Part shown: positions 420 to 64,000 of the stretch, piece after piece
How the letters are laid out: each line of letters opens with the position of its first letter
How positions within the stretch are numbered: position 1 is the stretch's first letter
Assembly: GCA_963921795.1 (NCBI GenBank)
Contig: OY997659.1
Coordinates: 25,714,649-25,778,648 of the forward strand
Direction of reading: 5' to 3'
DNA: 64,000 nt
DNA from: Nannobrachium achirus
Taxonomy: Eukaryota; Chordata; Actinopteri; Myctophiformes; Myctophidae
Made by a program: the position numbers and the translations under genes
Notes under the pieces: model-generated
The model's database searches: none
What the model saw: the letters and a program-made list of their open reading frames with translations, nothing else
What the model was told of the DNA's origin: nothing

Positions 420-31635
<31,216 letters not shown>

Positions 31636-44475: not shown

Positions 44476-44625
44476 TACCTTTGAGAGACTGTCACTGCCA
44501 TACACATAAATAAGGCATTAATTTGTCAAAGAAAAAAGATATGGAAATACAACGTATCTGCCTGACACCAACATTATATTATAACCAAACAAGCACTAAT
44601 CTGGGATTGTTGTTATTCTCTATAG

Positions 44626-49792
<5,167 letters not shown>

Positions 49793-51984
49793 TGAGACAC
49801 TGGAGGGCGCTCCCAGCACACAACTGGAGCAGGCCCACACACGGTGCACTCCGTTGCCCCAAAACACTCTTGATTTAGAGGGCAAATTAATTCAGAAGGG
49901 GTTAATTACAATATGCTCTTGTTTAGAGTTAGAGTAGAATGACCAAGATGAGGTAAAGCTGTTTCTTATTTGGTAGTCTAAGAAATTACAACATGTAGCA
50001 CATTATGTTTAATTGGTATTTTGCTGACTGAGCAACCGTTAGAATCTTTATTTTGAACAGAAAATGCCTTGTATTTGGCCTGAACATCATTGTTTGGTCT
50101 GAACACATTCACTTACTTCCCTGTCTGATGATCATGTGATCAGGTTCAACAGTATTATGAGGTTGACCTTTATGATAGCAGCACAATGACACAATGATCT
50201 CACTTTGGGGTAAAGATGTGCTCTCCTGATTACAATTTGCATTAGTGATTAGCTCCATTCACATTGCAATGAGGCCGTCACCCGCCACCTGTCACAATGT
50301 TATCTCCTCCACACCAAGAGGAAGACCATGCGTATAACAGGAATTATGGGAGCTACCACAGCAGTTTATCACAACAAAATACAACATGAACAAGTCACAG
50401 CAATTACAGGATCAGAGAAGGCTAACGGGAAGTTGCATGAGTCAATAGAGGCTATCAATTCATTTTCCCTGTCCTCTATTTCCCTGTTTAGGAGCCGGAG
50501 ACGTACACATAGTTACTGTCACCTTTTTGTTGAGAAGTTTGGATGTACTGTAGGCTTTTTGGTTGTAGTAAATTGAGAACAAGTAGTATAGGAATCCTGT
50601 GAATGTGAACAGAATTAGGAACATGTAGTAAGCTGATGTTATTGAGTCTTTTCTCAAATCAAAATAGATATTTGGCAGTGGCGTGCCGCGTGGTACATAA
50701 ATTATGTGAATAGGGACCTTAGGATGGGCGTGACCAATATAAATCACAGTGAGGGCACACTGAACCATGAAATGATTCTGTTAACATGTCATTTATCTCA
50801 TATATTTTCCCATCAGCAAAGCAGCAAGGCAGTTAAAATCACAAGACAAAAGGTTATGTGGATTTCCTCTTCTATATGAATTCCACGCTATGCAAGGACA
50901 TTTATTTTACCTTCGTTTTTTCCAACAATGGTGGCATCTTGATAGTGATGCATATTCATGAGCACAGATGTATAGATAACTTAAAAGTTGATGATTATAT
51001 AGATCTTTTATTTCATATTTCTCTACGTTTCCATTTATAATTGCATGTTCCATGTGACCTTGTGCCCTTTCAATCTAATATGTCACAAGCCATTAACAGT
51101 AGGGTTTGTCCTGATGGAGGAGGATTGTCCTTGGGTATATGTTTTATGAAATTCTCATTGGCACTAAAACGCAATAGGTATTTCCATCATTCGGATAGTT
51201 TACAGTTCCACATGGTAATGTATTCCCAGGTCACAGTAGACTGTCATGCAGTATACAGTATATTGCGTCTATCGTAATTTTTCAATCTTTGAAATATGTC
51301 TACCTGTCAAAGACGGTTGGAACATTCCAACATAGATTTGATTAATCTTCCCTGCGTTGCACAGTGTTTTGGTACACAGCAGCGGAACAACCATACTGTC
51401 TTTCCCAATGGAACCCATATTTATTCGGCATGACTGCCTTTTTCTTTTTTTCTTTTTTTTTCAATTGGTTCTGCTGAGTTCATATTTGTAAACCCATGGT
51501 GAGCACTCATCTAGGCAAAGTATGCATCACTACTACATCACTACTACAGTACCACCACACTGACTTTAACCACTTCAACCCTGTGGGGCCTATTTTCCTT
51601 CCAACGCAGTCCGCACTGGCGGAAGCGAACTTCTTAAAGAGCTGGTGCCATAGTTTTGTACTTTTTCTGTTTTGTATGTGTCTATGGAGTTGACATTACT
51701 CTAATAGACCTCCAAGTGTGGCTATAATGTGCAGGTTTTTGGTTACTTCCTGAAAGCTGAAAGACGAAAAACACAGATTAAATTACATCATATAATCATC
51801 CCCTCCCCTTTAACCATTCACCCAACACTGTGGGTGTGGCTAACCTCAGCTGGGCCACCAGACAACCAGGCATACTTAATGAACTGGAGGGTGTGGCCAC
51901 ATAAAAACCCAATTTTAACACTTTCTGTACACTTAAAAAAAACTTCCTCCTAGTATAATCATAATACCTGATCATCATGTTTTA

Positions 51985-52351: not shown

Positions 52352-53126
52352 CTAAAAGCCCGGTAGGAGCGAGATCATTTAGCGACCTACAACCGGGTCG
52401 CGACGTGGTCGTTAGTTTTCAGCGACCGGGTCGCTAAATCGAGCGACCGGGTCGCTAAATCGAGCGACCGGGTTGTTAAATCACCGACCGCGCCGCTAAA
52501 CCGACCGACCCGGTCGCTAAATCTACCGACCTGCCTGCAGTTTTAGGTCGGTAGATTTAGCGACCCGGTTGGTACATCTAGTGACCCGGTCGGAAGATTT
52601 TGCGCCCCAGTCGGTCGATTTAGCGACCCCGTCGCTCGCTTTAGCGGTGATTTAGCGACGCGGTCGGTGATTTAGCGACCCGGTCGGGAGGTTGCGTGGC
52701 AGGTTAGCCTAACTGAGGTAAGGTTACTGAGGTTAGGGTTAGGGTTAGGGTTAGGGTTAGGGTTAGGGTTAGTAGCCCGATGGTCGGTGGAAGCGACCAC
52801 CGGTCGGTGGATTTACCTACCCAGTCGCTGGATTAGCGTCCCGGTCGGTGGAATTAGCGTCCCGGTCGGTGGAATTAGCGTCCCGGTCGGTGGTTTTAGC
52901 GTCCCGGTCAGTGGTTTTAGCGTCCCGGTCGGTCGATTTAGCGAACCGGTCGGTGTTTTAGCGTCCCGGTCGGTGGTTTTAACGTCCTGGTCGGTGGTTC
53001 TAGCGTCCCGGTCGGTGGTTTTACCGTCCCAGTCGGTCGATTTAGCGACCCAGTCGCTGAAAATTACCGACCACGTCGCGACCCGGTTGTAGGTCGCTAA
53101 ATGATCTCGCCCTCTCTCTAAAAGCC
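52352..53126. mobile_element. fold-back element with minisatellite arms, TTAGGG core and perfect 9-bp target duplication
   Basis: The element proper is 52361-53117. It is flanked by identical CTAAAAGCC at 52352-52360 and 53118-53126. Near both ends, in inverse orientation, lies a long arm starting GCGAGATCATTTAGCGACCT and CAACCGGGTCGCGACGTGGT, alignable for at least 70-80 bp. The arms continue as a minisatellite of about 20 bp with variants of CGGTCGGTGGTTTTAGCGTC. The core at 52731-52772 is seven perfect GGTTAG units. A 9-bp duplication fits MULE/fold-back type transposition. No transposase ORF is present; the translated reading frame is only minisatellite. Confidence 0.82.
52731..52772 (+). 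repeat. seven perfect telomere-type GGTTAG repeats
   Basis: 42 bases, equal to (TTAGGG)n shifted, inside the fold-back element. Confidence 0.97.
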
Positions 53127-53622: not shown

Positions 53623-53830
53623 CCGTATTCCTGGGGTCCAACCTATGTTCCCCAGGTTCTATGTTCCCCAGGTTCTATGTTCCCCACCTCACAGCATTAG
53701 TTTAGTGAGGTTATGGTTATGGTTAGGGTTAGGGTTAGGGTTAGGGTTAGGGTTAGGTGGTAAGAAAGTGGGGAACATAGAACCTGGGGAACATAGAACC
53801 TGGGGAACATAGGTACGGTCCCGTATTCCT
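53623..53830. mobile_element. 188-bp fold-back element with telomere-type core and perfect 10-bp flanking duplication
   Basis: The element proper is about 53633-53820, flanked by identical CCGTATTCCT (53623-53632 and 53821-53830). The left arm carries about three units of CTATGTTCCCCAGGTT and the right arm has the same units inverted (GGGGAACATAGAACCT). The core is two GGTTAT and six GGTTAG units (53709-53756). There is no ORF. Confidence 0.85.
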
Positions 53831-58372: not shown

Positions 58373-58681
58373 CGGAATGCAATCGTTCACTCGCCGTTGG
58401 AAAATTGACTTATATTAGACTATTCTGGATGTGTGGCTAACGGCTAACTAGCGCTAGCTGCAGGCTAACGCTAGCTAGCGCTAGCTGCAGGCTAACGCAG
58501 GCATGTTATACACAATTACTCATGGAATAAAACGGCGACCCAACTCGGAATGCAATCGTTCACTCGCCGTTGGAAAATTGACTTATAGACTATTCTGGAT
58601 GTGTGGCTAATGGCTAACGCTAACGTTAGCTAGCACTAGCTGCAGGCTAACGCTAGCTAGCGCTAGCTGCAGGCTAACGCA
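58373..58681. repeat. tandem duplication with GCTAGC-rich palindromes
   Basis: Two copies start CGGAATGCAATCGTTCACTC at 58373 and 58546 (period 173). Each ends in nested palindromes built from GCTAGC and GCTAACG (for example CGCTAGCTAGCGCTAGCTGC). The copies differ at a few positions. Confidence 0.85.
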
Positions 58682-58862
58682 CGAGTCACGGTGTGTAATA
58701 AATTCACTTCAACCTCGTGTTGAGCAGTTAAACCTATTTGCTACGTACGTCTACAAAAACGTTCATATTTCAAAGATAAAGTGCTTACTGAAGTCTCACA
58801 GATGTCACAGTATGGTACGCTCAAGCAGAATTACCTGTATCTTTCATATTGTTTAATAAACA

Positions 58863-61095: not shown

Positions 61096-62839
61096 TTTTG
61101 GACCTAAACCTTTTTTCTAAAAAAAATTTTTCAAACTTTTTTTTTTTTTCAAAAAAGATTTTTTTTCAAACTTTTTTTACACTAACGTCAACACACCAAT
61201 CCACAGATTTTATATTGACTGTGTGTCAATTCTTGTTTCTTTAAAGATTACTATTGGCAACATGTCAGCTCTTCGATCCATCCTAGAGTAGTCTTGCATA
61301 GCCAGACAACTATTCCACAATCTCTGTATGCTATATAGAGACTGGAACTACAGCTCCTGAACGGCGAGTAATGGAAACTAGCATATATTCAAGAGAATAT
61401 ATTTTAAAATGTCATTACTGATAAGCAGCAAGCTAAATATGCTTAGATGATTTTTATTTATATAATGATAAATGTGCGCGATGTGAGACGGAAACGGAAG
61501 TGAGGAGGAGGCTTCACTTCCGCTTTATTCTTCTTATGTTATTCCAGACTGTATGACGGGAGCATTTGCAAATCGTGGAGTCAACAGTCTGGCCACGTGA
61601 GACTAATCGTAAAGGGACTCTGGGAATAATGCTTAATCTGAAAGTATCTGTGTGATCAGTATACTTCAATTTGCCTCTTTACCCTAACAAAGACTACAAT
61701 TTTCTCCACACCAACAGTAATCCTTTTTTTCTGGAGAATGAAACCTTTAGAGTCTACACATTTTAGTGCACATGGTCACATTTTATTACCCAAAAATGAT
61801 TCAGTTATGTTGAGACCCATTTCCTTGGGTTGAAAGCGTTTTCTTATTCTGTTCATTTCCCTCTTATTTCCATTCTCATCCAACTGCCAAAGGTGCATAT
61901 ACTGTAATGTATTGGACACTGACTGGAGATGGCTGCTTGGTTTGGTGACATTCCAATCATGAGCAAAAGGTCTATGCCTCCATCTTTGATGCAGTTATTT
62001 CATGCACACGGATCTGTGTGGTCTCCAGCACACTACCACGTGGCAATGTTGTTGGAGAGTTTGTGGACATGATAAATGTAGCACTAGTTTTCCGTGCTCA
62101 TTCATGTGTGTGCACGGGAACTGCTGGAGCTCAGGCTGTAGTGATGGATGAGCTGAAATTTTGAGCGTGTGGGCCATTTACTGAATAAGTCTTTATTTTG
62201 GCCTCCGATACCCCTGCTCTGTTACTCTTGTCTTAAGGCCATAGCTGTATTTTCGTTCTGTTGCCCAAGTAAAGGGATATTACACCACACCAGTCTAAAA
62301 CAATTTGTGTAGCTTAAAACATGGGTATCTGGCAAACAGGTTTATACTCAGCAAGTTATATCTGGTTTATAGACTACTACATGAATGATTCCGTTAACCT
62401 GAAACCGCTGATTTCGCCCCATTGAGGCTCTTCATTTCATCATAAATAAATGACAGACCCAGCAGGGAACTATACTAGCATTTTTCTGATTTTCATGTAT
62501 CGTTAGCAAAAAACCTGTATCAATTATTGTTCTTATAATAGAAGATATTAGAAATATGTTCTGAGTTCATGACAGAACAACAATCATTGTTTGTCATGGA
62601 TGTCATGGATGGGGATTATCACCAATGACCAAGATTTAATGTTTGTTGTCTCAGTTTTCAGAATAGGTGAACTGATAGTGGTTCTCAACCTTTTTCCTGT
62701 GTCCTCACTCCTCATTGAGACCAGGAGGAGTGAGCACATCAAGGGAATGGATCCAGAAAGTTTCCCTCTGGTTAATTCTCGTGAGGCGATCACCACCTCT
62801 TGTGAAATATTTGATATGGTCTATACCTGTAATCCCTAG

Positions 62840-64000
62840 GAGAGTGTCATTGCTGATATATTTGACTGACCAAATCAAACGCAAAGCGGATGACGGCAAA
62901 TATAGCGGCATGGTCATGATGGACCTCCAGAAGGCATTTGACACCGTAAATCATTCTATTCTGATTGAGAAACTAAAAGCCATCGGTCTTGACAGCGCAG
63001 CAGTGAGTTGGATGCAATCTTACCTGGTGGGGAGGGAACAGGTGGTGGAGATTAACGGTACCCTGCCCCCCCCCCTCCCAGTAAGCTGTGGTGTTCCTCA
63101 AGGTAGCATACTGGGACCTCTGTTGTTCCTAATATACGTGAACGACATGGCATCTGCTTGTGACTGCAACCTGTTCCTGTTCGCGGATGACTCGGCTCTC
63201 CTAGTCTCGGGCAAGGACCACTTGCAGGTTGAAAAGACACTTAACTCTGAACTAAGTAAGATCTGCACATGGCTTAACAACAACAAATTATCAATTCACC
63301 TGGGAAAAACTGTCCATCCTCTTTGGATCAAAACATAACCTCAAAAAAGTCGATAACTTCACAATCAAAGTGGGTGACAAGGTCATAACACGAAAAAACT
63401 AAATCTCTTACTTAGGATGTATCCTTGAAGCTAATCTTTCCAGCGAAAAGATGACTTCTAAAGTAATAAATAAAATCAACCAACGAACTCGTTTCCTACA
63501 GAGGATCGCCCCAATGGTCAATTTCAACACACTGAAGACCATAGCTGGTGCAATAATCCAGCCCCTCTTTGACTACGGAGTCCACGTATGGTATCGTGAT
63601 ACCCCACAAGCCCTAAAAACTAAACTCCAAACAGCCCAAAATAAACTAATTAGGGTCCTGCTTAACCTTCCCTATCAGACTCACCTCACCGCTACTCACC
63701 AGTTAAGAGTGGGGTGGCTCAGAGTAGATGACAGAGTACAGCAACTTGCAATGGGCCTGGTGTACAAGATACACTACACCACTATGATACCCAAGTACCT
63801 GTCAAAATACTTTATAAACATTAAGGATGTCCATAATTACAACACCAGAGGCAGCGCCACAGATCACTTTCAACCCAGAGTCAAAACCAACAAAGGGTCA
63901 AACTCTTTTTTCTGCTATACCACCAAAATGTGGAAAGCCTTACCGAAGGCCATAAAGGAGTGTGGATCACTAGCATCCTTTAAAATTGCCCTGAAAAACC
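62840..64000 (+). mobile_element. 5'-truncated, broken non-LTR retrotransposon (reverse transcriptase and C-terminal part)
   Basis: The translated sequence reads MVMMDLQKAFDTVNHSIL, SCGVPQGSILGPLLFLIYVN and LFLFADDSALL. FADD at 63180-63191 is the catalytic motif of non-LTR reverse transcriptases. After KICTWLNNNKLSIHLGKT the frame shifts at about 63311 and resumes as SILFGSKHNLKKV. An in-frame TAA follows at 63400-63402, then SYLGCILEANL and further homologous sequence to the window end. It is a pseudogene copy of jockey/L2/CR1-like type; the clade is not settled. Confidence 0.88.

Follow-up and report, generated by a model that had tools for sequence, protein, structure and literature searches.

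The closest described relatives of the locus reported here are fold-back elements of the MULE superfamily, and the comparisons made below draw on the parts of the cited papers that were accessible to us. Muta1 and related MULEs of Aedes aegypti generate 8- or 9-bp target duplications and have long ends with subterminal tandem repeats, and Muta1 has been termed a type 2 Foldback element (PMC5225508). In the Tm1 Mutator/Foldback family of root-knot nematodes, asymmetric motifs of 7 bp stand outermost, beyond the inverted repeat; the arms have variable counts of short tandem units, and there are both MITE-like and transposase-bearing members, the transposase being of the Phantom (FLYWCH-MULE) subclass (PMC3169594). 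Drosophila FB4 (PMC8277862) and Tetris (PMC4079207) have long inverted ends around a non-coding middle and were assigned to the MULEs by duplication size, which is 9-10 bp for FB4 and 8-10 bp for Tetris; the ends of Tetris contain tandem repeats of 220-bp units.

MULE target duplications measure 8-11 bp (PMC6446971), and MULEs are rare among 100 animal genomes (PMC8277862). For vertebrates, no MULE transposase could be confirmed in a 2019 survey, whose authors took the Repbase reports for misidentifications (PMC6446971). Vertebrate chromosomes do contain short interstitial telomeric sequences, which are put down to telomerase copying its RNA into breaks; at the loci studied, the authors saw no part for transposons (PMC8537989).

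Here we describe two fold-back elements, E1 and E2, in a 64-kb window (the whole stretch of DNA analysed) from the fish Nannobrachium achirus. The plan of the Muta1 group, with a MULE transposase, 8- or 9-bp duplications, long tandem-repeat ends and many non-autonomous derivatives sharing those ends, is matched by E2 and its transposase-bearing partner of the L084 type (PMC5225508). Asymmetric outer motifs, arms of short tandem units in variable number, members with and without transposase, and a Phantom-type enzyme are points of likeness to Tm1 (PMC3169594). The differences lie elsewhere. E1 and E2 have arms of 21-bp and 16-bp units, a telomere-type middle and a vertebrate host, and their ends are asymmetric, whereas the Muta1 group has an imperfectly palindromic 10-bp motif (PMC5225508). 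The duplications of Tm1 are mostly 9 bp and its units about 14 bp, and in some of its members the place of the telomere-type repeats of E1 and E2 is taken by a histone hairpin (PMC3169594). E1 also differs in its 8-bp duplication from FB4 (PMC8277862), and the accessible text on FB4 and Tetris mentions no telomere-type middle (PMC8277862, PMC4079207). The short telomere-type arrays of E1 and E2 resemble the interstitial telomeric sequences of other vertebrates, but that of E1 lies inside a transposon family (PMC8537989). Fold-back MULEs are a kind of element known from insects and nematodes; unusual here are the telomere-type middle, present in two families, and the vertebrate host.

Structure of E1 and E2

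The features of both elements are collected in Table 1. E1 is non-coding and 758 bp long, one base more than given in the first-pass annotation, which had described a fold-back element with arms of about 20-bp units around a core of seven perfect GGTTAG units. The core is as described; the arm units are mostly 21 bp. E2, which follows the same plan 0.5 kb downstream of E1, had been missed. These two elements hold the only GGTTAG arrays of at least three units in the window.

Table 1. Coordinates of E1, E2 and the paired MULE matches (plain numbers are positions in the window; contig positions are prefixed by the contig)
Feature	Position	Strand	Remark
E1 target duplication, left, TAAAAGCC, 8 bp	52353..52360	.	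ends set by 31 family copies
E1 non-coding fold-back element, 758 bp	52361..53118	+	
E1 outer end A, CGGTAGGA (copies usually CAGTAGGA)	52361..52368	+	not inverted at opposite end
E1 terminal inverted block, 43 bp	52369..52411	+	identical to right counterpart
E1 left arm, 21-bp minisatellite units	52412..52531	+	single orientation
E1 inversion axis	52532..52545	.	unit orientation flips (I9)
E1 opposite-orientation units left of middle domain	52546..52689	-	
E1 middle domain	52690..52778	+	degenerate and perfect telomere-type repeats
E1 GGTTAG x7	52731..52772	+	perfect
E1 right arm, 21-bp units	52779..53067	-	oriented as 52546-52689
E1 right terminal inverted block, 43 bp	53068..53110	-	
E1 outer end B, GAGAGAGG	53111..53118	-	read on minus strand
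E1 target duplication, right, TAAAAGCC	53119..53126	.	ends set by 31 family copies
E2 target duplication, left, GTATTCCT, 8 bp	53625..53632	.	
E2 fold-back element, E1-like plan, 190 bp	53633..53822	+	
E2 left arm, 16-bp units CTATGTTCCCCAGGTT	53641..53687	+	47 bp perfectly inverted at right
E2 telomere-type run	53709..53757	+	six perfect GGTTAG units at 53721-53756
E2 right arm	53768..53814	-	
E2 target duplication, right, GTATTCCT	53823..53830	.	
Opposite-strand MULE pairs	C9:67273060/67274817; C18:4469544/4471152; C20:55498052/55499724; C12:4159592/4162883; C1:83577155/83579859		

Both elements have the structure of the fold-back class, long inverted ends of tandem units around a middle domain. 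In E1, the two ends agree without a mismatch over the 43 bp that follow the outer 8 bp, and at 51 of the 61 positions beyond these; the inverted arms (I1) measure 104 nt and are 90% complementary. The single strand of E1 folds well beyond shuffled sequence (z -19.5, with none of 20 shuffles folding equally well), and E2 has a folding z of -11.4. The outermost ends of E1 are conserved across copies and unlike each other: one is CAGTAGGA, the other GAGAGAGG.

The palindrome had been drawn with the telomere-type core at its centre. The inverted minisatellite arms are real, but the telomere run is not their axis: the units change strand near 52538, to the left of the run. Five to six units point one way left of this position, and the units that flank the run on both sides point the opposite way. 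The run thus occupies the physical middle of E1, yet interrupts units that share one orientation.

A search of the window with Rfam gave no match, and Pfam detected no transposase in ten frames across the window or in 20 frames at 51.0-55.2 kb. Patterns of E1, E2 and the telomere core had no match in IMG/VR, nor did E2 in GTDB or E1 in plasmids. A literature search with sequence fragments returned papers that look unrelated.

E1 belongs to a dispersed family

The search for the terminal block proposed with the first-pass annotation was made over the host genome (1.66 Gb, 564 contigs). The exact terminal 20-mer of E1 occurs 758 times forward and 761 times in reverse, 1519 in all and dispersed, against 0 for a reversed-pattern control. 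We took as a sample the first 100 ends among the matches listed, which lie on C1 and on C2 up to 24.1 Mb. Sixty of these form 30 inward-facing pairs with spans of at most 1397 bp, and 40 are single. The 30 pairs, in which both 20-mers are intact, and the window copy make up the 31 copies measured, a set that favours intact copies. Twenty of them are of standard length and are 81-98% identical to their majority sequence, 14 at 95% or more. Three long copies (L011, L014, L018) match E1 repeatedly along their length and look like arm expansions. Nine single ends were inspected over 2 kb inward: three (L042, L044, L047) have a partner with one or two mismatches, and for the other six none turns up over these 2 kb with as many as 4 mismatches allowed. 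One E1 end also recurs five times on the same strand at an exact spacing of 3,496 bp (L039, C1:84825529-84839532), as a tandem array of a 3.5-kb unit.

The family also settles the length of the target duplication. The 9-bp repeat CTAAAAGCC reported around E1 is present (52352-52360 and 53118-53126), but its first C is E1's own last base, and the true duplication is the 8-bp TAAAAGCC. An exact 9-bp duplication abutting both ends is found in 0 of 31 copies, while an exact 8-bp duplication is found in 22, so that the proposed tally bears out defined ends and not the 9-bp length. A further three copies match at 7 of 8 positions and two at 6 of 8 (27 of 31 with at least 6 of 8); the remaining four (L020, L024, L026, L035) have no duplication, with 0 to 2 of 8 positions matching. 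Flanks swapped between copies gave an exact 8-bp match in 0 of 930 combinations and at least 6 of 8 in 7 of 930. As a measure of chance for the longer repeat, 11 of 8663 control positions have a match of at least 9 bp between their 25-bp flanks.

E1 is thus a real copy of a common dispersed fold-back element family, with defined ends and target duplications, and not a chance structure. The reading as a transposed unit and not a satellite, already made in the first-pass annotation, holds. An alternative would be a satellite or minisatellite of the usual kind that turned into a palindrome through rearrangement in place, its flanking repeats being due to chance. In its favour, the E2 unit forms long arrays (218 matches over about 3.5 kb on C1), and one E1 end sits in the 3,496-bp tandem unit on C1. 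The defined ends and the exact duplications in 22 of 31 dispersed copies, set against 0 of 930 in the swapped control, contradict this explanation and make it extremely improbable.

The telomere-type middle is inherited

GGTTAG is present in 27 of the 31 E1 copies, as at least two consecutive units in 26 of those 27, and in all 27 it runs from the CAGTAGGA end toward the GAGAGAGG end. The four copies that lack it are short (142 to 378 bp). In standard-length copies the run lies near the middle. Most of these 20 have ...GAGGTTAGGTTTAG there and then a variable number of GGTTAG units; the window copy is without this interruption. The telomere-type core is therefore inherited within the family, with a unit count that varies in the manner of a microsatellite.

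Vertebrate genomes do acquire telomere-type arrays through telomerase at breaks (PMC8537989), and telomerase might have inserted the repeats of E1 during break repair at this very place, the arms being incidental. The GGTTAG repeats, inherited by the family copies, were not put in here by telomerase: they stand in one orientation in 27 of 31 dispersed copies and near the middle of those of standard length. Insertions at break repair bring deletions or filler, and the word 'duplication' is absent from the main text of that report (PMC8537989); E1 has an 8-bp duplication where such scars would be expected. We regard a telomerase origin at this site as very improbable, contradicted as it is by the family data.

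Outside GGTTAG, homology between the middles of E1 and E2 is unsupported, since shuffled sequence scored at least as high in local alignment in 882 of 5000 cases for the left part and in 4600 of 5000 for the right. One could imagine that two fold-back families unrelated in sequence each keep a telomere-type middle, oriented alike with respect to their ends, that transposition is a main source of short interstitial arrays in this genome, and that a G-rich loop is perhaps beneficial to the elements; taken together this seems to us distinctly unlikely. Such a loop may be kept, for example, if it forms a quadruplex and so keeps the hairpin open to the transposase.

Telomere-type arrays were seen at some MULE loci as well. 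In L052 (2173-2281, contig C235) eight GGTTAG units are followed head-to-head by ten CTAACC units about 0.4 kb after the MULE domain match, and L053 and L069 have shorter arrays.

MULE transposases of the genome and the assignment of E2

The MULE profile PF10551 has at least 52 matches in the host genome, with 150 of 215 candidates scored. Several of these loci (L049-L078 and L082-L091, ten of them extended to about 5 kb on each side) have open frames longer than 420 aa, and dispersed copies share kilobases at 95-99% identity. Six frames were checked, and all six contain both MULE and FLYWCH domains, the Phantom type. Both ends could be set for six elements of three types, which are 5.8 to 8.9 kb long, have inverted arms of 16-bp units and are flanked by duplications matching at 8/8 (L083), 7/8 (L084), 9/9 (L088), 8/9 (L091), 8/9 (L090) and 7/9 (L082) positions. 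At five places, listed in Table 1, two MULE matches on opposite strands point away from each other, separated by about 1.4 to 3.0 kb.

Of special interest for E2 is the 5.8-kb element L084, whose frame has MULE and FLYWCH domains. It contains the E2 arm unit, as the consensus of a diverged array, and the E2 ends, GGGGTCC..CCTATGTTCCC and GGG.CCGTACCTATGTTCCC. Identity between the two, with the ends counted in, is 93% for the last 59 bp of E2 and 89% for the first 54 bp. Because its ends and arm unit match this FLYWCH-MULE-encoding element, we file E2 as a MULE derivative; judged by sequence, it is a non-autonomous relative of these MULEs. Its apparent 10-bp duplication consists of 8 bp plus two bases of the element, and 8 bp is within the MULE range.

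The second end of E2 occurs 282 and 261 times on the two strands of the host genome, with 0 for the control. The E2-type copies examined are few: four from the list of 100 ends, and three places where the E2 unit occurs. An exact 8-bp duplication flanks the window copy and L095, L080 matches at 7 of 8 positions, and L093 has none. Telomere-type units lie mid-element in the short copies L093 and L095 (three and two, respectively); in the stretch read, the longer relatives L092 and L094 and the array L079 have none. L080 has two units in its left part and more past its right end, and L081 has one telomere-type array 4.9 kb from its E2 units.

Some of these places have an arrangement of their own. 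L081 (992-4479, C1 near 1805991-1809479) has 218 matches to the 16-bp unit in one orientation, a minisatellite of about 3.5 kb without telomere-type repeats. In L080 an E2-type end is followed by a mirrored copy (..GGTCCCGTTTGAAGC .. GCTTCAAACGGGACC..), either two elements or an inverted duplication at one target. L092 has two E2-type ends about 110 bp apart with TTTAATAGTTAAAG before each, as if end and target had been duplicated.

What may move E1

The first-pass annotation had argued for a MULE or fold-back mechanism from the length of 9 bp. Because the ninth base belongs to the element and the duplication itself is 8 bp, that argument fails; support for a MULE comes instead from the FLYWCH-MULE elements of the genome and from the ends of E2. 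E1 and the local MULE elements are built alike, with short outer ends that are asymmetric and lead into inverted minisatellite arms, and E1 has an 8-bp duplication. Our preferred reading, to which we give a probability of about 0.65, is that E1 is a non-autonomous fold-back DNA transposon moved in trans, most likely by a FLYWCH-MULE transposase. Both the movement in trans and the choice of a MULE over another 8-bp enzyme are what we infer from this material.

A transposase supplied in trans would recognise the short asymmetric ends and the inverted minisatellite arms. E1 would be cut out and pasted at a staggered 8-bp cut, the filling-in of which would produce the 8-bp duplication. The arms would lengthen and shorten through tandem-repeat turnover, and the telomere-type middle would travel with each transposition while its unit number drifts like that of a microsatellite. 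The likeliest enzyme would be one of the Phantom-type FLYWCH-MULE transposases of the genome.

The 8-bp duplication lies within the 8-11 bp of MULEs and is not diagnostic of the enzyme, so another transposase that makes 8-bp duplications (hAT, the P-type as in Galileo-like fold-backs, or Merlin) could have moved E1, with E2 alone a MULE derivative. We place this alternative on the unlikely side. It gains from the ends of E1, CAGTAGGA and GAGAGAGG, which are unlike the GGG-starting ends of the local MULEs, a comparison with six elements of three types that gives no rule for all MULEs. The window itself holds two elements with 8-bp duplications that we presume to be hAT-like. hAT elements prefer T at position 2 and A at position 7 of their 8-bp duplication and have ends of the form YARNG. 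The ends and duplications of E1 do not follow this pattern, the 22 exact duplications having T at position 2 in 4 and A at position 7 in 3, which is no preference. Fold-back ends evolved in more than one superfamily (PMC3169594), which speaks for the alternative. Merlin elements make 8-9-bp duplications and have ends that begin with GG (PMC8101967); the ends of E1 do not begin so. Because its plan is shared with the local MULE elements, we favour a MULE for E1 by roughly two to one over another enzyme.

A direct partner of E1 was sought among the transposase loci. The terminal block, at up to 4 mismatches, was found within 1.5 kb on either side of 0 of 30 MULE loci, and 0 of 12 MULE matches on C1 and the first 24 Mb or so of C2 lie inside an exact pair of E1 ends. 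L048 was considered as an autonomous partner and rejected; it shares only about 31 bp of the E1 end, and its junction occurs nowhere else in the genome when up to 2 mismatches are allowed.

Surroundings of the elements

Kinase exons on the + strand at 44600-49793 were found by sequence motifs and are read as part of a class III myosin-like gene. The Pfam kinase domain in the first of them is weak (E 1.3e-5, below the family cut-off). E1 and E2 sit 2.6-4 kb downstream of the last kinase exon found, probably in the next intron; the motifs tried found no later myosin-III-like exon in the window. Together with this gene, the chromosome-sized contigs and the abundance of CA repeats fit a fish-like vertebrate host.

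The two elements that we take to be hAT-like, named from their ends TAGGGATGCACCG and TAGGGTTGCAACGG, lie at 28588-28947 and 2974-3625 and have perfect 8-bp duplications, ATTTTAAA and CTGTCAAG. A tandem pair of stretches of about 150-180 bp, each with a 27-bp GCTAGC-rich repeat, lies at 58373-58690, and a reverse transcriptase domain (RVT_1, E 5.9e-24) at 62679-63335 probably marks a LINE-type element.

Telomere-type repeats carried by transposons

A literature search, with most subscription papers outside its reach, found no description of a fold-back, MITE or MULE element with a telomere-type middle. Measured against the literature consulted, such a middle in two families and a MULE in a vertebrate host are apparently new, the kind of element being known. 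The multi-copy FLYWCH-MULE open frames of this fish genome contrast with what the 2019 survey concluded for vertebrates, as far as its accessible text goes (PMC6446971). For the telomere-type repeats themselves, transposition is a concrete route by which they can be scattered through chromosomes, in contrast to the action of telomerase at breaks (PMC8537989).
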